A DNA stretch of 64,000 nucleotides. Origin: an uncultured Clostridia bacterium. Its GTDB lineage: Bacteria; Bacillota; Clostridia; Christensenellales; Aristaeellaceae. Shown here one piece after another: positions 46,065 to 64,000 of the stretch. A program made the position numbers and the translations under genes. Every line of letters begins with the position of its first letter. Position 1 is the first letter of the stretch. Location: assembly GCA_946408995.1 (NCBI GenBank), contig CAMJUL010000001.1:51926-115925 (forward strand). Direction: 5' to 3'. The notes under the pieces are model-generated. The model saw only the letters and a program-made list of their open reading frames with translations, had not been told where the DNA came from and did not search any database.

Positions 46065-46099
46065 AGGGAAGGGCACCTCCTTATGTATTTTGTGCCCCC

Positions 46100-47185: not shown

Positions 47186-48944
47186 GTCCGCTTTCCCCTT
47201 TCGCCCCGTCCAAGGTTTTGGGCAGGCGGGCCGTAACGCGGGTTTTCCCCGGTTCGCTGCTGACCTGGAGGCCGTACTTTTCACCGAAGGTGTGCTTGAT
47301 GCGCTGGTCGATATTCCGCATCCCAATGCCCATCCCCTCGGCCTTCACTTCTCCCCGTTCCAGCTTGTTCAGAATGTCCTCGTCCATGCCGGGACCGTTA
47401 TCCTCGATGGTCAGCAGGATCTCGCCGCCCTCCTGACGGCCTTCGATCAAAATACGGCAAATATCCGTCATTTCTTCCACTGCGTGGTGCACCGCGTTTT
47501 CCACCAGCGGCTGAATGGTCATGGCGGGCACCAGACAGACTTTGATTTCCTCCTCCACGTCAAAGCGCACCTGCATCCGTTCCATATAGCGGATTTCCTG
47601 GATGCGGATGTACGCTTTCGCGGTTTCCAGGTCCTGTTCCACCGTCACGATATCCCGTTTATCGTTCATGGAGGAACGCAGCATCTTTCCCAGCGATTCC
47701 GTCATCACGGCGATCCGGCCGTTTCCTTCCTGCTGCGCCAGACAATAAATGGATTCCAGCACGTTATTCAGAAAATGGGGCCGCACCTGCGCCCGAAGCT
47801 GCTGCATCTGTTTTTCCTGCAAAAGCTGTTGCTGTTCAAAATTCCGTTTCATCATCAGGTGGTAATCCCGCGCCATCCGGTCAAAATGGCGATGCAGCCG
47901 GCCCATTTCATCCCCTCTGTCCCGGTAGGGGGAAGTGCCCAAATCCTCCACGTGGCCGTTTACAGCAAAGGCGTCGAATTTATCCACCAGCCGCCGCAGG
48001 TGTTTGAGTAAGGAATCCGCAAGCAGCATACTCAGCAGCAGCGCCACCGCCACGATGATCCCGTCGATCACCCACGTGCGCAAAGCTACCCGGTCGATGG
48101 TGGCGCTGATGCCGCTGTAATCGATCAGTGTCACATACCGCCATCCGTTGGATGCCGTATACCGGACGCAAAGCAGGTCTTCTCCGGGCTGGCGTATGCG
48201 TTCGTAGCCGTCCTCGCCGGGCGTGATCTGCCGGACCCGCTCGTTCCCGGCATATAGGCAAATACCGTCTTCGCTGTAAACGGCGCAGGTCAGGGGCGTG
48301 CCCAGGGCGTTCAGCGCATGCAGCCGGTTTTCAATGATCGTTTTCAGGTCCAGCTCAATTTGCAGGGTGGCCAGGGTATCCAGGGTCAAACCCTCCATTT
48401 CCCGGATTTCCCGCAGCAGGAACAGGTGGGTCATTTCACCGTCGCGGCTTTCCAGACGCCAAACGGCGCGGCCCTCATGGTTTGCCGCGTCCTGGATGCG
48501 CTCGGGCAGCATATCGGAATCCGGCACATAGGCGTTGCGGAAAAACCGGCTGAAGGTGGTGCCCGCCGGGGTCTTCAATTGCAGGCTGAAGCCGCTGGAA
48601 AACCACAGGGAAAAATTCGCCATGCGGTCGGCAACCTCATTTTTTGCTTCCACCCATGCCGTGGTGTTGATGGGCAGGCGTTTGAGCAGGCCCAGGTTTT
48701 TTTGCAGCACGTTATCGGATAGAATGCGCATGGAAATTTCCTGCACGTCGTCCAGCTCGCTTTGTATCTGCCCGGCGAACAGCGTGATCACCTGCGTGCT
48801 GCTTTGATAGAGCTGCCGGTCATAGGCTTTATAGGGCATACGAAAAGTGGCCAGTACCCCGGAAAGCACCAGAAGCATGGCCAGCGTCAGGATGAAAAGA
48901 AATTTCGTCCTTACTTTGATATTTCTCCAGATATGCTGAATCAT
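47178..48944 (-). CDS. Sensor histidine kinase, YesM-like
   Basis: 588 residues. One transmembrane helix near residues 13-28 and a second near 295-315 (WVIDGIIVAVALLLSMLLADSLL) flank an extracellular Cache-like sensor. A HAMP-like segment precedes the His_kinase motif LRAQVRPHFLNNVLESIYCLA, with the phospho-accepting His in RPHFLNN; then the ATPase domain (VENAVHHAVEEM as N box, IEDNGPGMDE as G1 box). YesM of B. subtilis senses pectin-derived sugars. Located 34 bases after the GH105 gene. Confidence 0.92.
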   Translation of the reverse strand: MIQHIWRNIKVRTKFLFILTLAMLLVLSGVLATFRMPYKAYDRQLYQSSTQVITLFAGQIQSELDDVQEISMRILSDNVLQKNLGLLKRLPINTTAWVEAKNEVADRMANFSLWFSSGFSLQLKTPAGTTFSRFFRNAYVPDSDMLPERIQDAANHEGRAVWRLESRDGEMTHLFLLREIREMEGLTLDTLATLQIELDLKTIIENRLHALNALGTPLTCAVYSEDGICLYAGNERVRQITPGEDGYERIRQPGEDLLCVRYTASNGWRYVTLIDYSGISATIDRVALRTWVIDGIIVAVALLLSMLLADSLLKHLRRLVDKFDAFAVNGHVEDLGTSPYRDRGDEMGRLHRHFDRMARDYHLMMKRNFEQQQLLQEKQMQQLRAQVRPHFLNNVLESIYCLAQQEGNGRIAVMTESLGKMLRSSMNDKRDIVTVEQDLETAKAYIRIQEIRYMERMQVRFDVEEEIKVCLVPAMTIQPLVENAVHHAVEEMTDICRILIEGRQEGGEILLTIEDNGPGMDEDILNKLERGEVKAEGMGIGMRNIDQRIKHTFGEKYGLQVSSEPGKTRVTARLPKTLDGAKGESGHV

Positions 48945-48978
48945 AGCGCCTTATTTCTTTTTTGTGTTGGGGACGGGT

Positions 48979-50097
48979 TTACTTCAGATACAGCGCTTCC
49001 GTCAGCGCCAGAGCCGTGAGAGACTGGCCGTAGGCCATAGGCCGGATCAAAATATCTTTATAGTGCTGGGCGTCCATGCCCATGCCCGTACCGGCGGACA
49101 CATTGCGAACCAAACCGTCGTCGTCCACGTAATCGAGCAGCGCCTCTACTGCTTTCTCGGCTGAGGGCAGATAGGTTTCATCCAGATAACCAAAGCGAAT
49201 GCCTGCCAATATGCCTGCCGCAACAGCGCCTGACCCGGAGGTCTCCAGATAAGAGCTTGGATCGGTCAGGATGGTATGCCATAAGCCGCAGGGATCCTGC
49301 GCCTTGATGAGCGCGTCCACCTGGTTTTTCCAGGCGTTGAGAATAAAGCGTTTGTCCGCGCCGCTGATATGGCCCTCCATGGCTTTCAGGAACATGACCG
49401 CCCCATAGGTGAACCAGGAATTACCCCGGTTCCAGAAGATACCGCCGAAATTGCTGTGCTCTTGGAAGGTCCAGCCATGATAGAGGAAACCGGTGCGGTT
49501 GTCTGCCAAATACTTAATGTGGAGCAGGTATTGGTAAACCGCTTCGTCGATCCATTCCTGATTATCGCGGCGCACGCCCATCTTGCCAAGGAACAGCACG
49601 GCCATGAACAGGGTGTCGGCCCAAAGCTGTTCCGGGTTCCGCCACACATCGTTCCGATCCGTGCCATGGCTGGTCACGTGTTCAAAGCCGCCCATCTGGG
49701 TCTTCGGCAGGGCATGAACCAAATAATCCGCCCGTTCCTCGCACAGCGCTTCCCATTCCGGCAGATCGTAGCGCTCCGTCAGGTCGAACAGGGTAAGGAA
49801 GGGAGCCGTGGTGTTGATATTGACGGAAGGCAGGCCGATGGACAGGTTGTCTTTCACCCATTGGAGCAGGAATGCGTCGTAGTCCCGGTTCCCTCTGGAC
49901 GCCTGCAATTGCAGCAGGCCGTACAGGCCCACGCCTTGGGGCCAGTCCCATTCTTTGATGCCAAAATCCCTGGCGAACATGCCCTTTTTCCGGTCTTCCT
50001 TGGAGGCGTTTTTGGCAGCCTCCGCATCAGCGGCGTCCAGATGCATGAGCTTATGGATGACCAGATCCAGTTTCTCGTTCAGCAACTTCTTGTCCAT
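48979..50097 (-). CDS. GH105 unsaturated rhamnogalacturonyl hydrolase (YesR/YteR-like)
   Basis: 372 residues, no signal peptide. DFGIKEWDWPQGVGLYGLLQL, NPEQLWADTLFMAVLFLGKMG (region of the catalytic Asp known in YteR), GIFWNRGNSWFTYGAVMFLKAM and ETSGSGAVAAGILAGIR match GH105 across its whole (alpha/alpha)6 barrel. These enzymes remove the unsaturated galacturonic acid left by lyases, acting intracellularly on imported rhamnogalacturonan-I disaccharides. ATG 50097 has GAGGAA upstream. Preceded by its own promoter and a LacI-like site. It is the strongest substrate indicator of the cargo. Confidence 0.92.
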   Translation of the reverse strand: MDKKLLNEKLDLVIHKLMHLDAADAEAAKNASKEDRKKGMFARDFGIKEWDWPQGVGLYGLLQLQASRGNRDYDAFLLQWVKDNLSIGLPSVNINTTAPFLTLFDLTERYDLPEWEALCEERADYLVHALPKTQMGGFEHVTSHGTDRNDVWRNPEQLWADTLFMAVLFLGKMGVRRDNQEWIDEAVYQYLLHIKYLADNRTGFLYHGWTFQEHSNFGGIFWNRGNSWFTYGAVMFLKAMEGHISGADKRFILNAWKNQVDALIKAQDPCGLWHTILTDPSSYLETSGSGAVAAGILAGIRFGYLDETYLPSAEKAVEALLDYVDDDGLVRNVSAGTGMGMDAQHYKDILIRPMAYGQSLTALALTEALYLK

Positions 50098-50146
50098 GGT
50101 TCATTCCTCACAATCACGATGAAGGATGCTATCGTTTTTTATTTTC

Positions 50147-50160
50147 TTTGATTCGTAAAC
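50147..50160. promoter_or_regulatory. Candidate LacI operator (site C)
   Basis: TTTGATTCGTAAAC overlaps the start of transcription expected from the promoter at 50162-50190. It shares GATTCGTAAA with the site before the LplC-like gene and ATTCGTAAA with the palindrome before lacI. Confidence 0.5.
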
Positions 50161-50161
50161 C

Positions 50162-50190
50162 ATAGTATTTCATTCTTCATGATCTGTCAA
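50162..50190 (-). promoter_or_regulatory. Promoter of GH105 and downstream genes
   Basis: TTGACA and TACTAT are spaced 17 bases on the minus strand, overlapping the end of the GH130 gene. It lets the GH105-YesMN part be transcribed separately from the upstream importer. Confidence 0.65.
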
Positions 50191-51197
50191 TACACGATTT
50201 TTGTATCTCTCTTCGAGTCTTCTTCCAGGCACAGAGCAATCAGATCGTCGATCTTCGCCTCGGCCAGGGCGATCACTGTATCCGCCGCTCCGTAATAAAT
50301 CCGCAGCCTGCCGTCCGGCATGGGGATAGCTGCGGTGGGGAAAATCACGTTGGTACGGAAGCCCTCTTTCGTTTCATAATCCGCTTCCGGGGCCAGCAGC
50401 GGCACCCGGCTATGCCCGATCATTTTCCAGGGCGCATCTTTATCCAGCAGGATCGCGGCGGCGCAGTACCGCTTGGTCCACTTGTCCTCCCAGCCGTTTT
50501 TGCCGCGTTCCGGATCGATGTCCACCGTATGGGTCACGGCCAGCCAGCCTTTTTCCGTGTATACGGGCGGCGCGCCGGGGCCGATTTTATCGTTGGCGAA
50601 AGGAAAATCTTCCACCCCTGCCACCAAATGGGAATTGCCCCAGTGGATCAGGTCTGGGCTTTCGCTCCACCAGATATCGAAGCGATCCCTGCCCCGGCTG
50701 TAGACGGGCATGGGACGTTCCAAACGTATGTACATCCCCTGGTATTTTTGGGGAAACAGCACCATATTCCGGTTATCCGGCACCGTCATGGAAATCACGT
50801 CGAAATGGTGCAAATCGTCCGTATGGGCGATGCCACCCCGCAGGCCGTGCCCAGTGTCCACGGCGAAGGTCATGTAGACTTCGCCGTCGATCACCGTAAG
50901 CCTCGGATCGTAGGCCCGCTTGATTTCCTCGTCTTTCAAGGAAAAAACGGGCTGCGGCTCCACTTGCCAATGGATGCCGTCCGGGCTCAAGGCAAGGCCG
51001 ATGTTGGTGCCCGAAAAGGAGGCCCTTCCCAAATAACCGTAATCGTTGCGAAAAACCATGGCGTATCCGCCCTGCCAGGGGATCACGCCCGCGTTGAATA
51101 CCAGGTCGCTGGCATACGGTACCTGCTTGCCAGTCAATACGGGGTTCTGAGGATACCGGGAAATACAGGAATGTGAAAAGAGCTGTTCTGTTGGCAT
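50187..51197 (-). CDS. GH130-family phosphorylase/hydrolase
   Basis: 336 residues. YPQNPVLTGKQVPYASDLVFNAGVIPWQGGYAMVFRNDYG is the first blade of a GH130 five-bladed propeller and AYDPRLTVIDGEVYMTFAVD contains the candidate catalytic Asp (DPR motif). The C-terminus (FPTAAIPMPDGRLRIYYGAADTVIALAEAKIDDLI) is also typical. Known members are beta-mannoside phosphorylases, but several subgroups act on other linkages. In a rhamnogalacturonan cluster the substrate is unclear. ATG 51197 preceded by GGAAGG; located 20 bases after the SGNH gene. Confidence 0.85.
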   Translation of the reverse strand: MPTEQLFSHSCISRYPQNPVLTGKQVPYASDLVFNAGVIPWQGGYAMVFRNDYGYLGRASFSGTNIGLALSPDGIHWQVEPQPVFSLKDEEIKRAYDPRLTVIDGEVYMTFAVDTGHGLRGGIAHTDDLHHFDVISMTVPDNRNMVLFPQKYQGMYIRLERPMPVYSRGRDRFDIWWSESPDLIHWGNSHLVAGVEDFPFANDKIGPGAPPVYTEKGWLAVTHTVDIDPERGKNGWEDKWTKRYCAAAILLDKDAPWKMIGHSRVPLLAPEADYETKEGFRTNVIFPTAAIPMPDGRLRIYYGAADTVIALAEAKIDDLIALCLEEDSKRDTKIVY

Positions 51198-51217
51198 GAG
51201 GTCCAGCCTTCCTTCCT

Positions 51218-51808
51218 TTACTCCATTGCGTCGCGGATGGCCCGCGCCGCGTGACGCGCTAATACCGTATAGCCTGTTTCAGTAAAATGCACCCAGTCCG
51301 CTCGATCCGAGGAGGGGATCAGACGCGAGGCTTCATCCAGTCGGTCGAGGCCCACGCCCTCGTCCGCCATGACGCGGCAGGCGATGCGGTTGTATTCGTC
51401 GATTTCCGCCTGGGTGCGCATGGGCACGCCCCGCTGGAATTTCGTCATGGATGCATCGATGCCGGTGGTCAGGGCAAACAGGATTTTTGCGTTGGGAAAC
51501 ACCGTCCGAATTCGTTGGATGATCCGGCGCAGGGTGGCTTCGTACACGTCCGGCGGCACCAGAGGCAGGGGATCGCCTTCAAAATGGCACACGTCCCATA
51601 GGCCGTTGTTCCAATGTACCAGGTCGATTTCCTCCGGGCGCGCGTCTATCATCTGCTCCGCCCAGGTATGCAGAAAGCACAGGGTATTCAATGAAAAACG
51701 GCAGTTTTCCTCCGGAAAATGCACGCCGGCGAAACCGGCCAGCAATTCCCGCACCAATTCGCCGTAGCCCAACCGGATGGAGTCGCCCAACAGGTAAACA
51801 TGTTTCAT
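51218..51808 (-). CDS. SGNH/GDSL hydrolase (probable carbohydrate esterase)
   Basis: 196 residues from ATG 51808. VYLLGDSIRLGYG is the block I GDS motif with the nucleophile Ser, LVHWNNGLWDVCHF holds the block III Asn, and DWVHFTETGY the block V Asp-x-x-His. Related small intracellular esterases occur in pectin loci (for example YesT/YesY of B. subtilis), where they remove acetyl groups from rhamnogalacturonan fragments. No signal peptide. Follows the LplA-like SBP. Confidence 0.85.
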   Translation of the reverse strand: MKHVYLLGDSIRLGYGELVRELLAGFAGVHFPEENCRFSLNTLCFLHTWAEQMIDARPEEIDLVHWNNGLWDVCHFEGDPLPLVPPDVYEATLRRIIQRIRTVFPNAKILFALTTGIDASMTKFQRGVPMRTQAEIDEYNRIACRVMADEGVGLDRLDEASRLIPSSDRADWVHFTETGYTVLARHAARAIRDAME

Positions 51809-51874
51809 AAGTTCCCCGAAAGGGAGGATCATCCCGAAAACGCGCGCGATGATCCTCCCTTTTTCCTTTATTTG

Positions 51875-53377
51875 TTACTTATTGATGCCGGAAGCGCGGA
51901 TCACGTTCATCATGGGCTCGCAGGCGGGCACATACACGTTCTGCAGGTAGGAGGCCATTTCCTCCTCGGTAATCTGGCCGCAGATGTACTGGGTGATCTT
52001 TTCGTTCCGTTCGCTGTACACGCCGTCGTTGGTCAGCTTGGTGGATTCGTCGTTATAGCCGGGAATGGTGCCTTCGCCTAAGTAGGAGATGCGGTATTCC
52101 AGGGAGCTGACGAAATCGTTGGCCGCCATCCAGTTGGCTAATTCAACTTCATTGGTGGAAGTGCCGCCCGCGATGATCATATCCTTGTTGGACAGCTGAT
52201 AATTGATGGTGGCGTAGGAGGCGCACCACTGGTCCGCCAGGGCGGTCTGTTCGGGGGTCAGGGTGATCACGCGGGTTTCTGGATCGAGGGATGTATAGGT
52301 CAGGCCTTCGATGCCCTTGAACAGCAGGGTCACGCACTCGTCAGTATAGCCGTCGTCCAGCACGCGCAGGGTCTCTTCGATGTGCTCGCTGTCCGCGTTG
52401 ATGGCATAGCCGCCCCAGACCTGGGGAGCGTAATACACGCCTACCTTGTCCGCGCCTTCCGGCAGCAGGGAAGGACCGGCCACCACGGTGCCTTCCGGGT
52501 TCACAGCCACAAAGGTGGCGTTGGCGGCCCACTGGGTCACGTGGTTGATGATGATGTCGGTATACAGCGCGCCGATCTTGCCCGCGAAGAACTTATCCTG
52601 ATCCTCGTAGGACTGGGTCAGATACCATTCGGGATCCAGCGCGCCGTTCAGGTACATGTCCCGCAGCCAGGTGAGGTACGTCATATAGCCCTCCTGGCCT
52701 TCCATCACGGTGTATTCGCCGTTTTCATCCGGCACGTCGCTGGGGCGGAGGCCGAAAGCGTGGATCAGGTTGCGGTCGTTGAAATTGCGGATGGAGAAGC
52801 CGTAGGTGTCGTCAATGCCGTTGTCGTCGGGGTCCTGTTTGGCGAAGGCCAGCATGACGTCCGCGAATTCCTGGGCGGTCTTGGGCACTTCCAGACCTAA
52901 CTTTTCCAGCCAGTCGCCGCGATAGGTGATGCAGTCCAGGGGCTTGGTCTGCACCCGGGGCAGGCTGTACAGCCGTCCGTCCACCAGGCAGCCCGCCAGT
53001 TCGTCCTGGGTGAGCACCTTGCAGGCGTTGGGCATGATTTCGGGGGTGAGATAATCAGTCAGGTCCAGCAGCAGACCGTCCCGGGCCCACTGCTGATAGG
53101 TATTGTTCAGGTTCTGAACGTAAATCAGGTCGGGCAGATCGTCGCTGGCCATGACCACGTTCAGCCGGTCGGAATAATTGCTGATGGGCGGCGCTTCCAC
53201 TTCGATGATCACGCCGGTGCGGTCGCCCCAGGCGGCGATCACGGGGTTGTCCTCCACGATGTACGCGGCGGGCAGACGCTGGATCATGGTGATGGTCACC
53301 TTGTCCTCAGCCAGAGCCGCCCCCATGCAGGAGAGGGCAAACAGCAAGGCCAACACGATACTCAGAGTCTTTTTCAT
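51875..53377 (-). CDS. Extracellular sugar-binding protein, LplA/YtcQ-like
   Basis: 500 residues from ATG 53377 (AAGGAAGG upstream). The signal peptide is KKTLSIVLALLFALSCMGAALA. The mature protein (VNMVIRASG at the end; PDLIYVQNLNNTYQQWARDGLLLDLTDYL; AQEFADVMLAFAKQDPDDNGIDDTYGFS with a Ca-binding-like DPDDNGIDD loop) is typical of the long LplA-type SBPs. Directly downstream of the LplB/LplC permeases; likely captures rhamnogalacturonan oligosaccharides. Confidence 0.9.
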   Translation of the reverse strand: MKKTLSIVLALLFALSCMGAALAEDKVTITMIQRLPAAYIVEDNPVIAAWGDRTGVIIEVEAPPISNYSDRLNVVMASDDLPDLIYVQNLNNTYQQWARDGLLLDLTDYLTPEIMPNACKVLTQDELAGCLVDGRLYSLPRVQTKPLDCITYRGDWLEKLGLEVPKTAQEFADVMLAFAKQDPDDNGIDDTYGFSIRNFNDRNLIHAFGLRPSDVPDENGEYTVMEGQEGYMTYLTWLRDMYLNGALDPEWYLTQSYEDQDKFFAGKIGALYTDIIINHVTQWAANATFVAVNPEGTVVAGPSLLPEGADKVGVYYAPQVWGGYAINADSEHIEETLRVLDDGYTDECVTLLFKGIEGLTYTSLDPETRVITLTPEQTALADQWCASYATINYQLSNKDMIIAGGTSTNEVELANWMAANDFVSSLEYRISYLGEGTIPGYNDESTKLTNDGVYSERNEKITQYICGQITEEEMASYLQNVYVPACEPMMNVIRASGINK

Positions 53378-53431
53378 GGGGATACCTTCCTTTTGCTTTT
53401 TTATTTCCACGCCATCCGGCGCTGGATTCCG

Positions 53432-54385
53432 TTAAGAATAGAAAGAGGGCTGACCAAGTTTTTGTGCGATCAGGTTGGAGGAAAACACCAGTACGGCCCC
53501 CACCACGTTTTTGAACAGGCCCACGGCGGTGGAATAGGAATACCGGCCTCCGGCGATGCCCACTTGGTACACGTAGGTCTCGAACACTTCCGCCACGGAC
53601 TGGTTCAGGTTGTTTTTGAACAGGAAAATCTGCTCAAAGCCGTTGTTCATCAGGCCGCCGATGGCTAAGATCAGCATGATCACGATGGTGCCGGAAATGC
53701 CGGGCAGGGTGATATACAGCGTCTGCTGGAAGCGGTTGGCCCCGTCCACCTTGGCTGCCTCATAGTATTCGGGATTGATGGCGGTGAGGGCGGAGAGGTA
53801 AATGATGGTGCCCCAGCCCGCCTCCTTCCAGATATGGGAGCCGATGATCACCGTGCGAAACCAATCCACGGAGCCGAGAAAATTGATTTTCTGCCCGCCC
53901 GAGGCGGCGATCAAATCGTTCACAAGGCCGTCCGTCATGCTCAGCATGTTCACCACGATGCCACCCAGCACCACCCAGGACAGGAAATGGGGCAGGTACA
54001 TGAGCGTTTGCGCCATCCGCTTATACACCTTGGAGCGGATTTCGTTGATCAGCAGCGCCAGGATGATGGGCACCGGGAAGGAAAAAATCAGCCGGGTGAT
54101 GCTCAAAAACAGGGAATTGCGCAGCACGCGGTAAAAGATCTGGCTGCCGAACAGCTCCTGGAAATTGGCGAAATTGTTGAAGGGACTGCCGAAGATGCCC
54201 TTCTTGAAGCTGAAATTCTGAAAGGCCATCATGATGCCGTACATGGGCACATAATGGAACAGGATCAGGTACACCAGTCCCGGTATGCACATCAGGTACA
54301 GCCAGCGCTTTTTCCAAATATACCTTTTCAGGCTGTTCCTTTTTGTCAAGGGTGTCGGCACCCGTTGATTGATGGTTTTTTCCAT
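53432..54385 (-). CDS. ABC sugar transporter permease, LplB/YteP-like
   Basis: 317 residues. PGLVYLILFHYVPMYGIMMAFQNFSFKKGIFGSPFNNFANF and the EAA loop YEAAKVDGANRFQQTLYITLPGI identify LplB. GAGGAGGG precedes ATG 54385. Lies between LplC and the SBP gene. The paralogous pair at 25705-27607 belongs to the host xylan locus and is clearly divergent. Confidence 0.9.
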   Translation of the reverse strand: MEKTINQRVPTPLTKRNSLKRYIWKKRWLYLMCIPGLVYLILFHYVPMYGIMMAFQNFSFKKGIFGSPFNNFANFQELFGSQIFYRVLRNSLFLSITRLIFSFPVPIILALLINEIRSKVYKRMAQTLMYLPHFLSWVVLGGIVVNMLSMTDGLVNDLIAASGGQKINFLGSVDWFRTVIIGSHIWKEAGWGTIIYLSALTAINPEYYEAAKVDGANRFQQTLYITLPGISGTIVIMLILAIGGLMNNGFEQIFLFKNNLNQSVAEVFETYVYQVGIAGGRYSYSTAVGLFKNVVGAVLVFSSNLIAQKLGQPSFYS

Positions 54386-54398
54386 TGATTTTCCCTCC

Positions 54399-55283
54399 TC
54401 ATTCCTTCACGCCGCCCAGAGCCAGGCCGGTCATGAAATACTTTTGCAGGAAAGGATAAATACACATAATGGGCACCGTAGCCACCACGATGGAGGCCAT
54501 TTTCAGCAGGAAAGGCGTGGACACCCGCTCGTCCATGGCCGTCATTTCGTTGACGGCGGATTCAAACAGCAGTTCCCGCAATACCAGTTGCAGGGGCCAG
54601 TTGGCCCGCTTGGTCATATACATGATGGCGTTAAAGTAGCTGTTCCAGTATCCCACGGCGGTGAACAGCCCCAAGGTAGCCAGGATGGGTGCGCTCAAGG
54701 GCAGTACGATGCGCACCAGCACCACCAGGTCGTTGGCACCGTCGATCAGCGCCGCTTCTTCCAGGGAACCGGGCAGGCCCTGAATGTAGTTCTTCATCAG
54801 GATCAGGTTATAGCAGCTCACCAGTCCGGGCAGGATCAGGGACCAGCGGTTGTTCAGCAGCCCCAAGGTGCGGATCAGGAAGTAATTGGGGATCATGCCG
54901 CCGGAAAAGAACATGGTGATGATCCACAGGGTCATGTACACGTTCCGGCCCTTCAAATCCTTTTTGCTTAAGGGATAGCCCGTCAGCACCAGCACGATCA
55001 GGGACAGGATGGAGCCGAAAAACGTGATGTACAGCGTGTTTCCGTAGCCCGTCCAGATATACCGGTAATTGGTCACCATCCGGTAAGCGTCCAAGGTCAG
55101 GCGGGAGGGAAAGAAATCGAAATGGTTTTTCAGGTACAGATCATAGGGCGTGAAGGAATAGATGATAACCAGTAAGATCGGAATAAAGCACAGCAGCGCG
55201 AATACCCCCACGATCAGATGGGAAAAACCGCTGATCACGTATTCATCCGCCGTTTTCCGCACCGCGCTTCTCTTTCCCGGCAT
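54399..55283 (-). CDS. ABC sugar transporter permease, LplC/YtcP-like
   Basis: 294 residues with six spans; MFFSGGMIPNYFLIRTLGLLNNRW is the LplC-specific loop and EEAALIDGANDLVVLVRIVLPLSAPI the EAA loop. First gene of the minus-strand cargo operon, starting 92 bases downstream of the strong promoter at 55375-55403 and after a LacI-like site. No ATPase is encoded. Confidence 0.9.
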   Translation of the reverse strand: MPGKRSAVRKTADEYVISGFSHLIVGVFALLCFIPILLVIIYSFTPYDLYLKNHFDFFPSRLTLDAYRMVTNYRYIWTGYGNTLYITFFGSILSLIVLVLTGYPLSKKDLKGRNVYMTLWIITMFFSGGMIPNYFLIRTLGLLNNRWSLILPGLVSCYNLILMKNYIQGLPGSLEEAALIDGANDLVVLVRIVLPLSAPILATLGLFTAVGYWNSYFNAIMYMTKRANWPLQLVLRELLFESAVNEMTAMDERVSTPFLLKMASIVVATVPIMCIYPFLQKYFMTGLALGGVKE

Positions 55284-55318
55284 CCTGATCTCCGTCCTTT
55301 CATTTCAGATTTGCCATC

Positions 55319-55331
55319 TTGATTCGTAAAG
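55319..55331. promoter_or_regulatory. Candidate LacI operator (site B)
   Basis: TTGATTCGTAAAG lies about 45 bases downstream of the -10 of the minus-strand cargo promoter, in position to block transcription. Confidence 0.5.
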
Positions 55332-55374
55332 TAATTTGTCAAGTTAATTTTTGCTTTCGTCAAGTTACGCGCCT

Positions 55375-55403
55375 ATCATATCCCAGATTTTTCCCCTTGT
55401 CAA
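55375..55403 (-). promoter_or_regulatory. Strong promoter of the rhamnogalacturonan importer operon
   Basis: On the minus strand TTGACA and TATGAT are spaced 17 bases. It drives the cargo genes from the LplC-like permease leftward. Confidence 0.7.
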
Positions 55404-55445
55404 GGGGTAAAATTGTTTTTTAGGGAAAAAATTTTTCCGTTTTTT

Positions 55446-55464
55446 CTGTTTATTCGTAAAACAG
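55446..55464. promoter_or_regulatory. Palindromic LacI-type operator (site A)
   Basis: CTGTTTATTCGTAAAACAG has inverted half-sites CTGTTT and AAACAG. It lies directly upstream of the lacI -35 element and shares ATTCGTAAA with sites B and C. Autoregulation is likely. Confidence 0.55.
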
Positions 55465-55468
55465 TTGC

Positions 55469-55497
55469 TTGACAAGTTGCTTTACAGTTGATATAAT
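55469..55497 (+). promoter_or_regulatory. Consensus promoter of the LacI regulator
   Basis: Perfect TTGACA and perfect TATAAT with 17-base spacing, 33 bases before the start codon. Confidence 0.8.
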
Positions 55498-55530
55498 GCT
55501 TTACGGACCTTGACAGAAGGGGGAAATACT

Positions 55531-56535
55531 ATGAGAAACAGAACCGTCAGCATGGATGATATCGCCAAAGCCTTAGGCGTAAGCAAAAACGCCGTCTCTT
55601 TGGCCCTGCGGGGCAAGGACGGCGTGAGCGAGGACCTGCGCCAGAAAATCGCCGCCAAAGCGAGGGAAATGGGCTACGGCCAGGAAAAACAATCATCCTC
55701 CCAATATATCCTCGCCCTCATTCCTCAGCGCAACACCCACCTGTTGGACGGCATGTTTTATCAGCAGGTTTGCTTCCATATGGAATCCTACGCCCGCTCC
55801 AAGGGGTATCTGCTCACCATATGCAGCGTATCGGAGGCGGAAGAAAAAGCCTGCCTGCCCCATCCCATGCTCAAGCAGATGCCCTTCCAGGGCGTGGCCA
55901 CCATTGGCAACCTTGCCAAGGAATACTGCATGCTGTACCGGAATTGCGGCATCAAATATTTAATGGTAGATCAGTATTACGACGATATCCCCGTGGACAG
56001 CATTACCACCGCCAATACCTCCGCCACCTATATGCTCACCCAGCACCTGATCGAGAAGGGCCATAAAAAAATCCAGTATATCGGCCCCCGCAAGCGCACC
56101 TCCAGCCTGTTTGACCGCTGGCGGGGCTACCAGCAGGCCATGGACGACCACGGCTTCCCCGTCCTGACCAATTCCTATGTGGAAGCGGACAGCCGGGACA
56201 ACGGGGACGATTATTCCCTGCTGAAAAGCGCCCTGGACGCTATGGACGAACTGCCCACCGCCTTCGTTTGCGGCCATGACGTGACCGCCAAGCAGGTGAT
56301 CGATATTTTGGGCGCGCAGGGGCTCACGTGTCCCCGGGATTTCTCCGTGGTGGGCTTTGACGACATTCCGATCCCGGAGGTGGCCCCCCTGAACCTGACC
56401 ACCTACCGCACCCCCAAAGCCGCCATCGCCCAGGCGTCCATTGACTGCCTCATTCAAAACGATTCCCGCTCGCCTCAGAAGTTGGAACTGTACGGCGAAC
56501 TGATCTGCCGGGGCAGCGTGCGGGATGTCCGCTGA
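55531..56535 (+). CDS. LacI/GalR family transcriptional repressor
   Basis: 334 residues from ATG 55531, preceded by AGAAGGGGGAAA. The N-terminal VSMDDIAKALGVSKNAVSLALRGKDGVSEDLRQKIAAKAREMGY is the LacI HTH plus hinge; a periplasmic-binding-protein-type effector domain follows (MLTQHLIEKGHKKIQYIGPRK, AFVCGHDVTAKQVIDILGAQGL, FSVVGFDDIPIPEVAPLNLTTYRTPK). Divergent from the importer operon and cotranscribed with the FAD oxidoreductase. Effector probably a rhamnogalacturonan- or rhamnose-derived sugar. Confidence 0.93.
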   Translation: MRNRTVSMDDIAKALGVSKNAVSLALRGKDGVSEDLRQKIAAKAREMGYGQEKQSSSQYILALIPQRNTHLLDGMFYQQVCFHMESYARSKGYLLTICSVSEAEEKACLPHPMLKQMPFQGVATIGNLAKEYCMLYRNCGIKYLMVDQYYDDIPVDSITTANTSATYMLTQHLIEKGHKKIQYIGPRKRTSSLFDRWRGYQQAMDDHGFPVLTNSYVEADSRDNGDDYSLLKSALDAMDELPTAFVCGHDVTAKQVIDILGAQGLTCPRDFSVVGFDDIPIPEVAPLNLTTYRTPKAAIAQASIDCLIQNDSRSPQKLELYGELICRGSVRDVR

Positions 56536-56560
56536 ACGATCAAAAAAAGGAGAAAAAGCC

Positions 56561-57877
56561 ATGGATATTTTCTATGATGTGATCGTAGCCGGAGGCGGCC
56601 CGGCCGGTGTCTCAGCCGCCATGGCAGCCGCCCGAAGCGGGGCCAAAACGCTGCTGATCGAAGCCAACGGTTCCTTGGGCGGAACGGTCACCAACGGTTC
56701 TCTGCCCGCCTTCTGCCCCTTTGGCAATACGGACGAACCGCTCATTCAAGGGATCGGTTTGGAGATACTGGAAGCCCTGCGGGCAGAAACAAAGCTGCCC
56801 TCCTATTATGAGGACAGCCCGGAAAAGCCGCTTTATAATTGGTTCCCGGTGGACGGGGAAGCGCTGAAACGCATCTTAGATGACAAGGTGCTGTCCAGCG
56901 GGTGCGAATTGCTGCTGCACGCCCATTTTGTGGGCTGTGAAACGGAAGACGGCGTCATTCGCAGCGTCACGGTGCATACGCCCGGCGGCCTGGAAACCTT
57001 CGCCGCAAAGACGTTCATCGACTGCACCGGGGACGGCGTTCTTTCCGCCGAAGCGGGATGCGAAATCCAGTTGGGAAATGAGGAAGGCTTGGTTCAGTCC
57101 GGCACCCTGTGCTTCAAAATCGCACCCTTCGATACCGAACGTTTTATCCGCTACGCCGAAGAAACCGGGGAGGGCGGGAATCTGCTGCACGCCTGCGCCC
57201 GAGCAATTGCCGACGGCGCTTTTCCGGAAGGAGAAACCAAAGTGGCGGGCATTTCCTTTCCCTATCCGGGCGTGGCCGTGCTGAACTTCGGCCATATCTA
57301 CGGTATTGATCCCCTGAACGCGGCGTCCCTGACCCGCGCCGAAGTGGAAGGAAGAAAAATGCTGCCGGAGCTTTTGCGCTTCCTGCGGAATTACGTGCCT
57401 GGCGCGGAAAACGCCGTAATCGTTTCCAGCGGGCCTAACCTGGGCATCCGGGAATCCCGCCGGGTCATGGGCGATTATGTGCTGACGAAGGAAGATTATT
57501 TCCGCCGGGCTGATTTTAACGACGCCATCGCCTATTATTGCTATCCCATCGATATTCACGCCCTGCGGCCCGGTAAACAGACACAGGAATGGAACGAGCT
57601 CTACTATAACCGGCGCTATCAGCCCGGCGAGGCCTACGGCGTCCCCTACCGCTGCCTCACGCCCAAAGGCATAAAAAACCTGCTCACAGCCGGAAAGATC
57701 ATCAGCTGCGATCAGATCATGTTAGGTTCCGTCCGCGTGGTTCCCTGCTGCTTCGCCACCGGCCAGGCCGCCGGTACCGCCGCCGCCATGGCCGCCCGGT
57801 CAGATATTTCCGTCCGGTCCGTTGACCCAACAGTCCTGCGGGATTCCCTGAAGCGGAAAGGCTGCTTCTTAAGATAA
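56561..57877 (+). CDS. FAD-dependent oxidoreductase (PF12831-type)
   Basis: 438 residues from ATG 56561 with AAGGAG upstream. The Rossmann motif YDVIVAGGGPAGVSAAMAAARSGAKTLLIEANGSLGG binds FAD; TFIDCTGDGVLSAEAGC and the C-terminal LTAGKIISCDQIMLGSVRVVPCCFATGQAAGTAAAMAA complete the family pattern. Such enzymes are common in pectin and mucin loci of anaerobes with unknown chemistry, possibly oxidising or dehydrating sugar derivatives. Starts 25 bases after the lacI stop and ends at a strong terminator. Confidence 0.88.
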   Translation: MDIFYDVIVAGGGPAGVSAAMAAARSGAKTLLIEANGSLGGTVTNGSLPAFCPFGNTDEPLIQGIGLEILEALRAETKLPSYYEDSPEKPLYNWFPVDGEALKRILDDKVLSSGCELLLHAHFVGCETEDGVIRSVTVHTPGGLETFAAKTFIDCTGDGVLSAEAGCEIQLGNEEGLVQSGTLCFKIAPFDTERFIRYAEETGEGGNLLHACARAIADGAFPEGETKVAGISFPYPGVAVLNFGHIYGIDPLNAASLTRAEVEGRKMLPELLRFLRNYVPGAENAVIVSSGPNLGIRESRRVMGDYVLTKEDYFRRADFNDAIAYYCYPIDIHALRPGKQTQEWNELYYNRRYQPGEAYGVPYRCLTPKGIKNLLTAGKIISCDQIMLGSVRVVPCCFATGQAAGTAAAMAARSDISVRSVDPTVLRDSLKRKGCFLR

Positions 57878-57913
57878 AGGGACGTGACGGGCAATCATCA
57901 TGCTGAAAGTTGG

Positions 57914-57938
57914 AACAGAAAGCCCTTTCTGTTTTTTT
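57914..57938. terminator. Intrinsic terminator after the FAD oxidoreductase
   Basis: AACAGAAA and TTTCTGTT form a perfect eight-base stem with a GCCC loop and TTTTT tail. An outer GCTGAAAG/CTTTCAGC pair extends it. Confidence 0.8.
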
Positions 57939-57985
57939 GCATTTTTCAGCTTTCAGCAAAGGCATATATCCTTTTACTTCAGGAA

Positions 57986-59125
57986 TTATTCTTCCTGTTC
58001 TGGCCCGATCAGCATTACCTCTCCCAGTTCTCCCTGCTCAAGCGAAATATGCAGGTTCATGATCTCCGTTTCTTCAAAGGAGAACAGGCAGCACTCTCCC
58101 GGCTTTTCGGGGGTAAAATCAAAGGGAAGGCTTAGATTTCCCAGTTCTACAATTCCGGCGATCCTCGTTCCCAGCGCCGGATAGAGAAGCAGCATATCCG
58201 CATGGACAGCAACGGCCCAGGAAAAGGAAACGGTTTTACCCTGCCACACATAGGCGGCGGAGGAAGCGGCCTGGCAGATATCGCCGTCCCGAAGCAGCCC
58301 TCCGGGATCGCCTTCGCATGCTGCCTCCCCTATCCAGTTTACGCACTGGATATCTGCCAGCGGCCTTAACTGCGGCGCTCGCGTGGGGCCGTTGATATAG
58401 GCGGTGCCGTCGTCATGGAATCCGGCCCGGTCAATGTTCAGCCGCCGGTTGCCGGAAGGCCTGTCGGGAAAGGTAGCGCCTTTTATCAGTTGGGCGCGTT
58501 CCTCCTTTGACGGTGTTCTCAACAGGATTGCTTTAACATTGGGATTATTCAGATAGTACCATGCAGGAACATCGTTTAGCTTGTTCACCAGAAGAATAAC
58601 CAGATTTTTCAGAATGCCTTTCTCCGTCCGAACTTCCTGGGCTTCCAAAGATGCCTGCATCAAAATGGTAAACCCTTCAATTTCTTGTTGCTGCATATTG
58701 ACAGGATCATTGATATATCTGGAAGCAAAGTCCATAATCACTACGGTTGCAGCATCCTTCTGGGTTAGCGCTATCTCTACCATTGTTGCGGCAGAATTGT
58801 TATTCTTTCCCCGAAATTCCGCAGCGATTCTGCCGTTCCCTGTAACGTTGGCTTTCACGAGATCAGCAAAGCGATTGGCATATCCCGCTTCATATTTATT
58901 GTAGAAACCACGTATTCCGTCAAACATGATGATGTTCTCATACCCAATATCCTTGAAATAATAGTGAAGGTATTCAGGTAATCTAACAATGGCCCCTTGA
59001 GAAAGACTGCCCTCAAGCGGATAAAGATAGCTATCCAGTATATTTCCTTCGAGGATCAGGCAAGGCTTAATCTTCCTGAATATCTCCATTTCCTGATGCC
59101 ATTTCGAGAGACTTACTTCGCTCAT
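57986..59125 (-). pseudogene. Chimeric ORF: N-terminal half of an AAA-type element ATPase fused to an unrelated cargo-derived tail
   Basis: Residues ~1-220 (FRKIKPCLILEGNILDSYLYP, GAIVRLPEYLHYYFKDIGYENIIMFD, VVIMDFASRYINDP, VILLVNKLNDVPAWYYLNNPNVK) look like the first half of AAA-family ATPases carried by Clostridial mobile elements, which are much longer. After GATFP the composition changes to GC-rich and the remaining ~160 residues (GFHDDGTAYINGPTRAPQLRPLADIQ and beta-rich sequence) are unrelated and resemble nothing I can name. The join near 58465 probably marks the cargo insertion point. ATG 59125 has GGAGG; no Walker motifs in the remaining part, so ATPase activity is unlikely. Confidence 0.6.
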
Positions 59126-59251
59126 GCTTAACCTCCAACCCTTTTGATCGGCTTATTTGTTCTAATACGTTCTCATATCCCGGTTGGTGGATCCCAACAG
59201 AGATGATTCCTTCACCTGTTGAGAAATTTTGAATTCTACTGTTGGCCGTTT

Positions 59252-59416
59252 TCAGATAGCTGTGTAGCGATCTCGATAATCTGTGTTCAGTATCAGAATT
59301 CTTTGGTTGTCCGATCCTCGCAGCAGTAAACCATGATTCTTCGCCTCAATGTACTTCCGGTACAATTCGATGCTGATTCCAAAGGCTTCGGTCGATAATC
59401 TGATGTCTTGGAACAT
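59252..59416 (-). CDS. Possible 54-residue protein after the relaxase gene
   Basis: ATG 59416, seven bases after the relaxase stop, opens MFQDIRLSTEAFGISIEL and ends in ...DYRDRYTAI before a TGA. It is below the ORF-track cutoff. Start without a clear Shine-Dalgarno but close enough for coupling. Composition matches the element backbone. Could be real or a fragment of a longer ancestral gene. Confidence 0.35.
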   Translation of the reverse strand: MFQDIRLSTEAFGISIELYRKYIEAKNHGLLLRGSDNQRILILNTDYRDRYTAI

Positions 59417-59422
59417 TGAAAT

Positions 59423-61105
59423 TCAGCGGGTGCTCAGGACTGATGGCTGAACGCTGTATGTTGATTGCTCACGCTCAATCTGTTGTTCGATTTGCATTTT
59501 CCTTTTTTCTTCTTCCAATAACCGTGCTGCCTCCCTTAAACTTTCTTTATATTTTTCAAAGCTGATCTTATCGTGAATTTCAGATCGAATATCCTCCCGT
59601 GCCTGCTGCTCCAATTCCGGGCGGATAACTTTTCGTATTTTGAGCAGGGAAGCTTGATCGTAATTCCTGGACTTAACGGCCAACTCAGTAAATCTCTGCT
59701 TTCCTTTTCTGATTTTGGAATCCAGTGCAGCGTTGATTGCTGTGATATGGTCATTTGAAGCTTCTTTTTCCGCAATCATGCGCTGAATCTCCTGAATGTC
59801 TTTTGCTTTTTCCCCACCCGCTTTTTGAAGGACAGCGTTCTCTTGCTCCTGTAAACTAATGATTTCGTAATCCAGACGGTCAATTTCATCAGAAAGCGTA
59901 TGTCGCTTCAAAAAACTCATGATCGGCAGAGCGTCCTTCTCTCTTTGAAGCCTATTTCTCGTTTTGATCTTTTCTTTGATCCTTCGCCGAATCAAGGTGT
60001 ATTCATCGCAAAGCCGCTTTGCCCAGGTAATATAGGCTTCGTTCTGCTCCAGCTTTGCTTGGTTATGCAGCTTCCCGTAAATGAAAACGATCACGTTTTT
60101 CCGAATCGTTTCCATCTCGCGGGCAATGCCTTCTATGGTCGGCTTTGCCGCCTGCATGAGTTTTTCCACCCATTCTTTCAGCTTGCGCAGGAGAGCGTTA
60201 TCCTTCCTGATTTGCCGGTTCAATTCGCACCTTTCAGATATGCCGCCTTCTTTCTCCAAAATTCGAGCGGCCGTTCCCTCATGGATAGTGGGCTGCTCGT
60301 CGATACCCCGTGCCGCGTTGCTGCGGTGGTCGATCCGTTCATCATGATCGGCGTTTTCCAAATGCCGATTGACCACGTCTGCCCACGCCGCCCGCCATTT
60401 CTCCAGTTGTTCCTCGCTGTTCCACCGTTCCGTGATGGGATTCTGCCGCCCGAATTTGGTACTCTTGGGATTCTTGCTGGCTCGGGCATAACCTTGGGCT
60501 TCAGCAGCAGACGGAGCCATGTATACCTTTTTCTTGCCGAAGAGATAAGGATACTGCTTCTCCCAGCCGTTTGCCTGTGCCACTTTGTATTCCGTACTGG
60601 TGAAGCCCTTTTCTTCCCCATTGCGGATACAAAGATATTCCTTTTCCGTCTTATTCTGCCAAGTCCCATCCTGGTTCAAAGGCCGAACGGTCAGCAGGAC
60701 GTGGGCGTGGGGATTTGTCCCGTCTGTATCATGGACGGCAACCTGCGCGCACATCCCATCCGAAACAAAATGCTCCTGAATAAACTCGGTCATGATGGCA
60801 ATCCATTCTTTCTTACTCAACTCAATCGGCAGGGCCAGAATCATTTCCCGCGCCAAACGGCTGTCCTTGGATTTCTCGGCGGCTTCCACCGCATTCCACA
60901 GCTTTTCCTTGTCCTGCCATTCCGCCGGTGCCATAGGAGGAAGGAATACCTGATCCCACACCAAGCCCTGTTTCTTCGTGTAATCGTGCTGAATCCCGTC
61001 GTAGTCATTATAAATGGCCGTACAACCGATATAAGCGGCAGCGGCACAGGCAGACCGGCCTTCTCCCCGCGTGATGATCTTGACTTCGTTATGGTAGATC
61101 GCCAT
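59423..61105 (-). CDS. MobA/MobL-type (MOBQ) relaxase
   Basis: 560 residues from ATG 61105, preceded by AAAGGAGGG; the track adds 47 leader codons. AIYHNEVKIITRGEGRSACAAAAYIGC is the N-terminal motif I region with the candidate catalytic Tyr, and VAVHDTDGTNPHAHVLLTVRPL the HxDxxxPHxH metal-binding motif III of MobA/MobL. The C-terminal ~250 residues are coiled-coil-rich. It nicks oriT and pilots the strand in mobilization by a helper conjugative system. The oriT candidate lies just upstream of the gene. Confidence 0.93.
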   Translation of the reverse strand: MAIYHNEVKIITRGEGRSACAAAAYIGCTAIYNDYDGIQHDYTKKQGLVWDQVFLPPMAPAEWQDKEKLWNAVEAAEKSKDSRLAREMILALPIELSKKEWIAIMTEFIQEHFVSDGMCAQVAVHDTDGTNPHAHVLLTVRPLNQDGTWQNKTEKEYLCIRNGEEKGFTSTEYKVAQANGWEKQYPYLFGKKKVYMAPSAAEAQGYARASKNPKSTKFGRQNPITERWNSEEQLEKWRAAWADVVNRHLENADHDERIDHRSNAARGIDEQPTIHEGTAARILEKEGGISERCELNRQIRKDNALLRKLKEWVEKLMQAAKPTIEGIAREMETIRKNVIVFIYGKLHNQAKLEQNEAYITWAKRLCDEYTLIRRRIKEKIKTRNRLQREKDALPIMSFLKRHTLSDEIDRLDYEIISLQEQENAVLQKAGGEKAKDIQEIQRMIAEKEASNDHITAINAALDSKIRKGKQRFTELAVKSRNYDQASLLKIRKVIRPELEQQAREDIRSEIHDKISFEKYKESLREAARLLEEEKRKMQIEQQIEREQSTYSVQPSVLSTR

Positions 61106-61470
61106 TTCGTTCCTCCCTCCTTTCTGGCTCCTCAGAGCCTTTTTCTGGTTTTCTTTCGCAAAAGAGAACGATGCCCGCAGGCATCCAGCCCCCGGCAAAG
61201 CTGCCAGTGGCAGGTTTGCCCAAGCAGTTGCAGGCATGAGCATCATGCCGGAATCTGCCGAAGGCAGAGGTCAACTGCACAGCCGATGCTCGTTCTGTCT
61301 CTGGCCAGAACGACATTGGCTGAAAGGCGTCCGCAGACGCCGCATCCCCCTCGGAGAGCGCACGGCCCGACCAACGGGAGGGATACCACCGCCCGAAGGG
61401 TGGTGAGTAAGTGCGCCCTTCGGGAGATAAGAAACGGAGCGCCTCAGGTTACCCCGAAACGCCCCGTTCG
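61106..61470. other. Non-coding mobilization region
   Basis: Contains the oriT candidate and several hairpins (GGCGTCcgcaGACGCC near 61329-61344, CCCTTCGGG near 61417) but no supported gene. Probably also hosts the relaxase promoter. Confidence 0.5.
61384..61420 (+). other. Candidate oriT with IncQ-type nic region
   Basis: ACCACCgcccgaagGGTGGT (61385-61404) is an inverted repeat followed by GTAAGTGCGCCCT (61407-61419). The latter closely matches the nic region recognised by IncQ/MOBQ relaxases (as in RSF1010 and pSC101), and the hairpin-then-nic layout is the same. It sits in a ~365-base non-coding region immediately upstream of the relaxase gene, which also holds GGCGTCcgcaGACGCC and other repeats. 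Confidence 0.7.
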
Positions 61471-61668
61471 TTAGTTCAGCTTACGTTCTAATTCGCGCTC
61501 CAACTCCGTCAAGTCCATTCCCACGGCAGTCGGAAACACCTTCTCCAGGATCGCTCCTTCCTGGATCAGCCGCCTCGTCCGGGCTTTCCGTTCCTTCACC
61601 CGATCACGAGCCTGGGCTTCTTCCAGCCGGTGTTGCGCTTGGAGCAATTTCTTCTCGTTTTCTGTCAT
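61471..61668 (-). CDS. DUF3847/TraD-like mobilization accessory protein
   Basis: 65 residues from ATG 61668 (GAGGGAG upstream; the track start is 32 codons earlier). NEKKLLQAQHRLEEAQARDRVKERKARTRRLIQEGAILEKV is a charged coiled coil followed by the RKxRTRRLIxxGAxxE motif seen in TraD/DUF3847 accessory proteins next to MobA/MobL relaxases. Probably helps relaxosome assembly. Confidence 0.7.
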   Translation of the reverse strand: MTENEKKLLQAQHRLEEAQARDRVKERKARTRRLIQEGAILEKVFPTAVGMDLTELERELERKLN

Positions 61669-61844
61669 AATCGTCAACTCCCTCTGTTGAAATGCTTGGT
61701 TTCTCTCCATATCGCAAGTCCTTTTCTGCTGATTTGCGATAAAACGGCAGAAAAAAAGCGACAATGTTTGTTCGGATGAAAAGTAACAGCGCCGCTTTCA
61801 AGAATCCTGCCAATTTGAGTTTGAAATATGCAGGATTGGCAGGA

Positions 61845-62279
61845 TCAGAAATTGTCGGCGAATGATAAAGCGTCATCCAGGGAGGCTTCCTGCTTGTTGT
61901 TTTCGCTGGATGCTTCCTCGCTCTCCGGGGTAAAAGATTGCGGATTCACTGCAATCTGTTCGTTTCCGGCCGCTGATTGAAGCAGACCAATGAGCGTATT
62001 CAGAATCACCATCGGCATGGCCTCCTTCGCGCCTTTCTCCACCGTGTCTAATACCGATTGCAGAAAAGCATCTTCCTTCTCTCGGGTTTCCAGGTAGGGG
62101 TCAGCTTCTGCCCGTTCTGCTCTCCCAAAATAATCGTTGACCGCTATCACCACCGCCCGGCTGTATGATTTATACTTCTTCCGATCCATACGCTGTAAAT
62201 GCTCCCAGGCTTCCCGATCATCCGGATTTGCCAGGTTCAGCCGGATATTGGTATTGATCGTTTCTCGTTCCTTCACCAT
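61845..62279 (-). CDS. ParR-like partition adaptor (ribbon-helix-helix type)
   Basis: 144 residues from ATG 62279; it overlaps the ParM-like gene by seven bases. ETINTNIRLNLANPDDREAWEHLQRMDRKKYKSYSRAVVIAVNDYF looks like a ribbon-helix-helix DNA-binding domain, and the acidic C-terminus could contact ParM filaments. The track's 166-residue version uses an unsupported upstream start. The parMR pairing supports the call, since sequence alone is weak. Confidence 0.6.
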   Translation of the reverse strand: MVKERETINTNIRLNLANPDDREAWEHLQRMDRKKYKSYSRAVVIAVNDYFGRAERAEADPYLETREKEDAFLQSVLDTVEKGAKEAMPMVILNTLIGLLQSAAGNEQIAVNPQSFTPESEEASSENNKQEASLDDALSFADNF

Positions 62280-63226
62280 ACGGCAATCCCTGCCTTCGCC
62301 AGTTTCCGCTTCGCCATCATCTCGTATCCTTTGGCGGCGGCACATACGTCGTCATTGATGATGACCCGTTTCGGATCGTATTCCGCAAAGCTCCGAATCA
62401 GGCAGGCACCGCCGCCTACCACAAACAACCGCATCAATTCCGGGTTGTACTCGTGTTCCCGCATCTTACGAAAAATGCCCTGCACATATGCTGCCGCCGT
62501 CTGTCGGATGGAAGCCAGAAACCTTTCGCTGATTTCCGCTGTTCCAAAGCGGAATACCCGCTCAATCACTGATTCGTCTGCTGCCACGCCGAATTGCTTC
62601 ATCAGGTTTTCTTTCACCGCCAGCATACATTGATTGACGCCATACTTTTCCGTATAGCATTTCTGCTCCTGGGGCATCCGGTCATTAATGTACATCACAT
62701 TCATGGTGCCGTTGCCTATATCCGCCAGCATGTTCACCCCGGAAAACTCTCCCAGCTTGTTTGCCACCGCCGCAAAGCCTTGAGGAAATACATCCGCGCC
62801 TACGAATTGGACGTGATAATCCCTTCCATTGAAAGAAAAGTCAGCCGCTTCATTTTTCAGTAGATACTTCCGAAAGCTCTCCCGCTGTTCCCGTACCCAG
62901 GTCAGGGGCAAGCCTGCGGCAATATGCACTTTTGCTGAGTACAACTTCCGAATATTCATTTCCCGCGCGATAGCTGCAAGAGTCAGGATATAGTAGTCCT
63001 CGTCCTGAATCTTGTCTGCGATAAACTCCTTGTGGCCCTCTCCGATCTTGAAGTACCGCCCCTGATAAACCAATAGATTGTTCTTGAAAGTCGGTTCGGA
63101 ATCATAGACCACCACGCCCGTCTTGAAACAAGTATTGACCGTTTTCATGTTCCCAAAGCCATGGTCAATTGCAGTGACCAGTACCTTTTCCTCTGTTCCA
63201 TAGTTGTTGTTCATTGTTTCTTTCAT
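62273..63226 (-). CDS. ParM/StbA-like actin ATPase (plasmid segregation type)
   Basis: 317 residues. TAIDHGFGNMKTVNT is the phosphate 1 loop, MLADIGNGTMNVMYIND the phosphate 2 loop and LFVVGGGACLI the adenosine motif of bacterial actins. ParM filaments push replicons apart. Presence in an integrating element suggests a replicating or stabilised circular phase. AAAGGAAAG precedes ATG 63226. Confidence 0.88.
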   Translation of the reverse strand: MKETMNNNYGTEEKVLVTAIDHGFGNMKTVNTCFKTGVVVYDSEPTFKNNLLVYQGRYFKIGEGHKEFIADKIQDEDYYILTLAAIAREMNIRKLYSAKVHIAAGLPLTWVREQRESFRKYLLKNEAADFSFNGRDYHVQFVGADVFPQGFAAVANKLGEFSGVNMLADIGNGTMNVMYINDRMPQEQKCYTEKYGVNQCMLAVKENLMKQFGVAADESVIERVFRFGTAEISERFLASIRQTAAAYVQGIFRKMREHEYNPELMRLFVVGGGACLIRSFAEYDPKRVIINDDVCAAAKGYEMMAKRKLAKAGIAVW

Positions 63227-63279
63227 ATGCTTTCCTTTCCGCCGTATAGATCGGCTTTCAAATTGATGTTTGGGTATAG

Positions 63280-63316
63280 AAAAAGCCGTCAGGCTTGAAA
63301 TCTTTCCTGACGGCTT
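63280..63316 (-). terminator. Terminator between tnpV and parM
   Basis: AAGCCGTCAGG and CCTGACGGCTT form a perfect 11-base stem; on the minus strand TTTTTC follows, so it terminates tnpV. Confidence 0.8.
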
Positions 63317-63343
63317 GCCGAGGTTATGTATTTGTGCTATCCT

Positions 63344-63694
63344 TTATGTGAAGATGATCTCCCGGAAGATCACTTCTTCCGCTTGGGCTTTGCAAGCGTT
63401 CATGATGCCGACCCACCTCAGCTGATCGGCAGCTTTGAGCGCTTCTGTGGCTCCAGCAGCTTTCGCTAATGCGGGAACAATTGCTTCCAGCCTACTTTGG
63501 GCGGCGTCCTCCGTTTCGATCAAGTGTTCAAACAAGGTCCCGTTCTGAACCATGAGACCAAACAGAACCGGACGATGCTCCCGCAGATACTCCCTCCGCA
63601 TCCGGCCATACTTGCCGATAGAACGGGTGGTATCGAATCCAACTACGACATTGGGGATCAGGTAACCGTTCTCTTCGTGATAGGTGATATCCAT
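63344..63694 (-). CDS. tnpV: TnpV family transposon-encoded protein
   Basis: 116 residues from ATG 63694 with AGGAGG upstream. MDITYHEENGYLIPNV, YGRMRREYLREHRPVLF and TEALKAADQLRWVGIMNACKAQAEEVIF are the TnpV signatures known from Tn4451-type elements. Function not established. It links this end of the element with the TnpX-like recombinase at the other end. Confidence 0.9.
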   Translation of the reverse strand: MDITYHEENGYLIPNVVVGFDTTRSIGKYGRMRREYLREHRPVLFGLMVQNGTLFEHLIETEDAAQSRLEAIVPALAKAAGATEALKAADQLRWVGIMNACKAQAEEVIFREIIFT

Positions 63695-63949
63695 TCTGTA
63701 CCTCCTTGTTACTCTCCGATGCTTGATTTTACTCGATTTCTTTGCCATGAGCACTGCGGTCTGTCGGCTGTAAATCAAGCGGTTCAGAATGGTTCCTTAT
63801 CACCTCTTACTCCTGGCTGCCGGTTCGGATTCCTTCCCGGCCGGGAACATTCCTGAAGGCGGGCGTTTTGAACGCGAGGATGGGAACCGGGGCGGTTAGC
63901 CGGTCCGGCACATGCCCTTTCTATGGATCCCTGTTACCGCTTACGCTTA

Positions 63950-64000
63950 ATCGGGTAGGAGGGGGTGGCTAACCCCCGTCCTCCCACACCACCGCTCATG
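63950..64000 (-). other. Probable 3' end (domain VI) of a group II intron
   Basis: Read on the minus strand, this segment ends with a GGGGG/CCCCC hairpin, a bulge-like TTAGCC loop and CTACCCGAT, which resembles the 3' terminus of bacterial group II introns downstream of their reverse transcriptase. The upstream parts lie outside the window, so only the last ~51 bases can be judged. If right, the intron lies to the right of 63950 in minus orientation. Confidence 0.4.

Follow-up and report, generated by a model that had tools for sequence, protein, structure and literature searches.

How did an open reading frame that begins as one protein and ends as another come to lie beside the relaxase gene of a mobile element? 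The frame (57986-59125) belongs to a 64,000-nucleotide stretch of DNA (the window) from an uncultured Clostridia bacterium of the family Aristaeellaceae, probably a rumen bacterium. The initial annotation saw here a fossil junction at which an AAA gene had been cut short and fused to sequence from the cargo. Our analysis agrees with this, identifies the cargo-side part as the end of a GH43 glycosidase gene within a MobA-bearing element, and leads to a different account of how the junction arose.

The element and its cargo

The region at ca. 36085-63814 is predicted to be a large-serine-recombinase integrative mobilizable element (IME) inserted in a chromosomal gene. Its borders and main parts are as follows.

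36085-36086: left end, CT core; CCTGG common to the right end
36085-39634: left module, 93 to 95% nucleotide identity in sister elements
36181-37908, minus strand: large serine recombinase with Resolvase, Recombinase, Zn_ribbon_recom, and DUF4368 domains
38593-39636, plus strand: HTH/DUF5071 protein, within the left module
39635-58478: present cargo, carbohydrate-use genes
59475-63814, minus strand: right module with MobA/MobL (MobQ) relaxase, DUF3847, an unknown protein, ParM-like protein, and TnpV; 88 to 91% nucleotide identity in sister elements
63813-63814: right end, CT core; the flank continues the gene beginning at 35419

When the flanks were rejoined in silico, they formed a 250-aa ORF similar across the join to genes of two relatives from the same genus (G009 and G082). 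The relaxase matched MobA_MobL (1.4e-86) and scored over the NCBIfam cut-off for MobQ. The features by which an IME is recognized were thus found together, namely, a terminal large serine recombinase, a relaxase, a short identical end sequence, and a reconstructable empty site. Between the end modules, the cargo encodes a sulfatase maturase, a GtaA-like protein, two ABC uptake systems, a two-component system, GH88, GH130, GDSL, and LacI proteins, an FAD oxidoreductase, and a GH43 stump. At its left edge, the anaerobic sulfatase-maturase-like radical SAM gene (39811-40930, minus strand) is split by a frameshift near 40300. Past the interrupted gene, the contig ends in a G-rich palindromic sequence (63890-64000), possibly a repeat, for which an Rfam search gave no match.

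Serine-recombinase IMEs with variable cargo are already known (PMC5704250). Like the Tn4451-type IMEs in that review, the window element combines a serine recombinase, a MobQ-type relaxase, and a TnpV homologue with a very short end repeat, insertion into a gene, and variable cargo (PMC5704250). Unlike most of the reviewed IMEs, which measure 5 to 15 kb (PMC5704250), it reaches 27.7 kb with 20 kb of carbohydrate-use cargo. It also differs from the Tn4451 type in that other copies of its family lie in intergenic palindromes. Literature searches on rumen IMEs, on IMEs with polysaccharide cargo, and on the candidate defense family PDC-S37 returned nothing closer than this review.

Two truncated genes in one reading frame

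The hybrid ORF and its surroundings, up to the right module, comprise the following.

57986-59125, minus strand: chimeric ORF, 379 aa, AAA N-part joined in frame with GH43 C-part
57986-58478, minus strand: GH43 C-part, ca. 160 terminal codons of a gene for a GH43-family glycosidase, with its natural stop
58468-58485: junction 1 (AAA/GH43), DNA junction at ca. 58479
58479-59125, minus strand: AAA N-part, a Clp-type AAA+ ATPase gene up to codon ca. 216, without Walker A or AAA domain
59126-59377, minus strand: C-terminal remnant of a radical SAM (NrdG-like activase) gene, frameshifted by two single-base deletions
59378-59474: junction 2 zone, ca. 97 bp, no match in 308 family genomes

Searched separately, the two halves fell into distinct families, as the initial annotation had anticipated. 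Over residues 1-219, the chimera was 77% identical to the corresponding residues (1-219) of a Clp-type AAA+ protein of 624 aa. Its residues 218-376 matched the last third (residues 315-473) of a 476-aa GH43 protein (G025:C3) with 47% identity; this part was also 52% identical (67% in DNA) to the C-terminus of a 628-aa GH43 encoded elsewhere in the genome, on contig C35. The abrupt change in composition and similarity that had been noticed near 58465 was confirmed and placed at ca. 58479, where GC content switches from 42.8% on the AAA side to 58.0% on the GH43 side (GC3 of 0.46 and 0.63, respectively); nucleotide similarity to the AAA gene spans 58479-59366 and ends at junction 1. A Pfam search with the 379-aa chimera gave no match.

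Neither part reaches its catalytic domain. In the 624-aa relative, Walker A lies at residue 353 and Pfam AAA_2 at 344-518, so that the label "AAA-type" given to the ORF holds insofar as the retained residues are the N-terminal part of an AAA+ protein, although they stop before the ATPase domain by which a Clp-type AAA+ ATPase is recognized. Along similar lines, the chimera shares with the GH43 glycosidases (476 and 628 aa) ca. 160 C-terminal residues and the natural C-terminus; unlike them, it has lost nearly all of the five-bladed propeller with the catalytic residues that defines GH43 (Pfam GH43 at 48-338 in the 476-aa relative). The product, which lacks both the ATPase domain and the active site of the glycosidase, most likely has no function, and the chimera in itself is ordinary debris.

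The missing AAA C-terminal half was absent from the left cargo edge, as had been reported, and from the rest of the genome, where the only match was to a ClpB-like 863-aa ORF (C28). The missing GH43 N-terminal half was likewise absent from its own genome, with matches only to more distant GH43 genes. The proposal that a deletion accompanied the event therefore stands, with DNA lost on both sides of the junction.

The initial annotation did not mention that the fragment is also cut on the side facing MobA. The radical SAM remnant lies directly upstream of the AAA piece, in the gene order of an intact pair on an Aristaeella lactis plasmid, and the two form a radical SAM-AAA fragment of ca. 0.9 to 1.0 kb that is truncated at both ends. 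The 116-bp zone beside MobA had no match in 308 genomes, and the ca. 97 bp of junction 2 are perhaps decayed radical SAM sequence; no direct repeat common to junctions 1 and 2 was found. The AAA part aligns without indel to the 624-aa relative; its 648 bases show no frameshift, and 54 of the 55 residues invariant across 19 homologues are retained, which suggests that the AAA cut is probably recent. Since the radical SAM remnant has two deletions in ca. 290 bases, the two cuts may not share one history.

Intact relatives and sister elements

We searched for the N-terminal half in 200 family genomes and for the full chimera in 396 order genomes. Contig-truncated copies aside, the N-terminal half occurred in ORFs of ca. 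620 to 700 aa and the GH43 half in ORFs of ca. 480 to 1105 aa. No ORF outside the window joined both halves in the 396 genomes; homologues of the same two-part architecture across genomes, named beforehand as the contrary finding, were thus absent from this set. In G025 and G024, the loci that carry GH43 were examined for an intact parent arrangement, with the glycosidase adjoining an FAD oxidoreductase; the glycosidase was present, the FAD oxidoreductase was not.

The only close intact radical SAM-AAA pair found was that of the A. lactis plasmid (NZ_CP069422.1), which was also the single match in a protein-level plasmid search with the AAA N-part; IMG/VR held no relatives of this part. The plasmid pair is the nearest relative (78% amino acid identity over the AAA N-part and 72% nucleotide identity over ca. 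890 bp including the radical SAM end, in identical order), but it is intact, while the window keeps only ca. 950 bp truncated on both sides. It belongs to an operon with the order DUF4011 helicase-kinase-FHA-radical SAM-AAA-PP2C-kinase, whose helicase matches PDC-S37. The plasmid region 15062-32924 encodes the DUF4011 helicase, two kinases, FHA, an NrdG-like radical SAM protein, a Clp-type AAA protein, PP2C, and DUF6273. A more distant AAA orthologue (57% class) was found in a conserved chromosomal CotH-DUF4956-VTC locus (L047 to L050) in four Aristaeellaceae genomes examined; a PGA_cap gene was seen in L048. The first ca. 220 codons do match an ATPase family, as claimed, but the full-length ATPases expected next to MobA/MobL were found in the CotH-DUF4956-VTC locus or in the kinase/FHA/PP2C operon, none of them with MobA.

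The sister elements G251 (C16, ca. 18344-49900) and G185 (C73, ca. 1788-29285) have both end modules at 88 to 95% nucleotide identity and differ in everything between them (19 to 24 kb), with overall lengths of ca. 27 to 32 kb against 27.7 kb in the window; a third, partial sister was found in G134. Cargo is swapped among them: G251 carries pectin-type glycan genes, G185 carries Gabija, Hma, and PDC-S59, and G134 carries PD-Lambda-5 and a Druantia-like protein. Judged by these comparisons, they make up a family of serine-recombinase mobilizable elements with near-constant end modules and exchangeable cargo for glycan use or defense. Both ends of G251 and G185, and the right ends of G134 and G248, are bordered by inverted arms of ca. 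19 bp (GGGGGAAACCACNCTTTGG...), as though the elements had entered the loop of a palindrome between genes, whereas the window copy interrupts a gene.

Origin of the hybrid

We consider it probable that the chimera is a leftover of an earlier, possibly defense-type cargo in the MobA-side slot that now holds carbohydrate-use genes; that it was once cargo, and in what order the events took place, is what we infer. The slot would formerly have held the radical SAM-AAA pair, probably within a kinase/FHA/phosphatase operon like that of the A. lactis plasmid. Later rearrangements would have removed everything upstream of the final part of the radical SAM gene and everything downstream of AAA codon ca. 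216, and illegitimate recombination would have joined this codon to GH43 codon ca. 316 at the margin of the carbohydrate cargo; agreement in reading frame had a one-in-three chance. The end modules would have stayed constant while the cargo changed, with the chimera as debris within. Points that weigh against this course are the uneven decay of the two gene remnants, the unmatched ca. 97 bp next to MobA, the draft state of the genome, and the failure to find, among the elements examined, a sister that could serve as an intermediate.

A full operon may never have been present, and a ca. 1-kb radical SAM-AAA fragment may have been acquired by illegitimate recombination, either together with the carbohydrate cargo or beside it. 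Truncation on both sides would fit such an acquisition, as would the fact that no sister with an intact radical SAM-AAA operon adjoining MobA, the expected intermediate, was found among the elements examined; we nevertheless regard it as unlikely, since the order and orientation of the operon are preserved and whole cargo modules occupy the same slot in the sisters. The initial annotation had instead taken the junction as the point where cargo entered a backbone gene of the element, next to MobA, and had posited a cargo-free ancestor with that gene intact. The AAA piece does adjoin MobA and lacks its C-terminal half, but the gene is absent from G251, G185, and G134, which have other genes at this position between end modules 88 to 95% identical, and neither AAA nor radical SAM genes occur at ca. 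25 related MobA loci (mostly with flanks of ca. 1.5 kb). Given also that the fragment is truncated upstream and that its intact relatives are chromosomal or in the kinase/FHA operon, we rejected the AAA gene as backbone, an origin that now seems very improbable.

An assembly artifact joining unrelated contigs at 58479 or near 59430 was rejected as the main explanation and has only a slight chance of being correct. The genome is a draft of 129 contigs and the window ends at a contig end; against this, the two end modules lie, together with the chromosomal flanks on either side, on a single contig, spaced as in the sisters, the C35 GH43 paralogue is too distant to have caused the join, and the junctions share no direct repeat. 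Least credible of all, and hardly tenable, is that the fusion has yielded a new functional gene, whose product could, for instance, be a binding protein that combines the AAA N-domain with a GH43 accessory domain. Its 379 codons are open in frame and nearly all family-invariant residues of the AAA part are kept, although agreement in frame has the one-in-three chance given above and residue retention fits a recent event equally well; we rejected a functional fusion because the chimera was found in only one of the genomes searched and both catalytic domains are missing.

Returning to the reading as a leftover of former cargo, the MobA-side slot may alternate between antiphage defense and carbohydrate-use modules, in which case the ca. 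1-kb stump would be the datable trace of one such switch, in which a kinase/radical SAM/AAA defense-type operon gave way to glycan cargo; we put this forward tentatively. The value of the chimera lies in its use as a marker of the rewriting of a cargo slot in a mobilizable element family of Aristaeellaceae and relatives, and the sisters, with defense systems or pectin-type glycan genes between near-identical end modules, offer a natural system for the study of cargo exchange.
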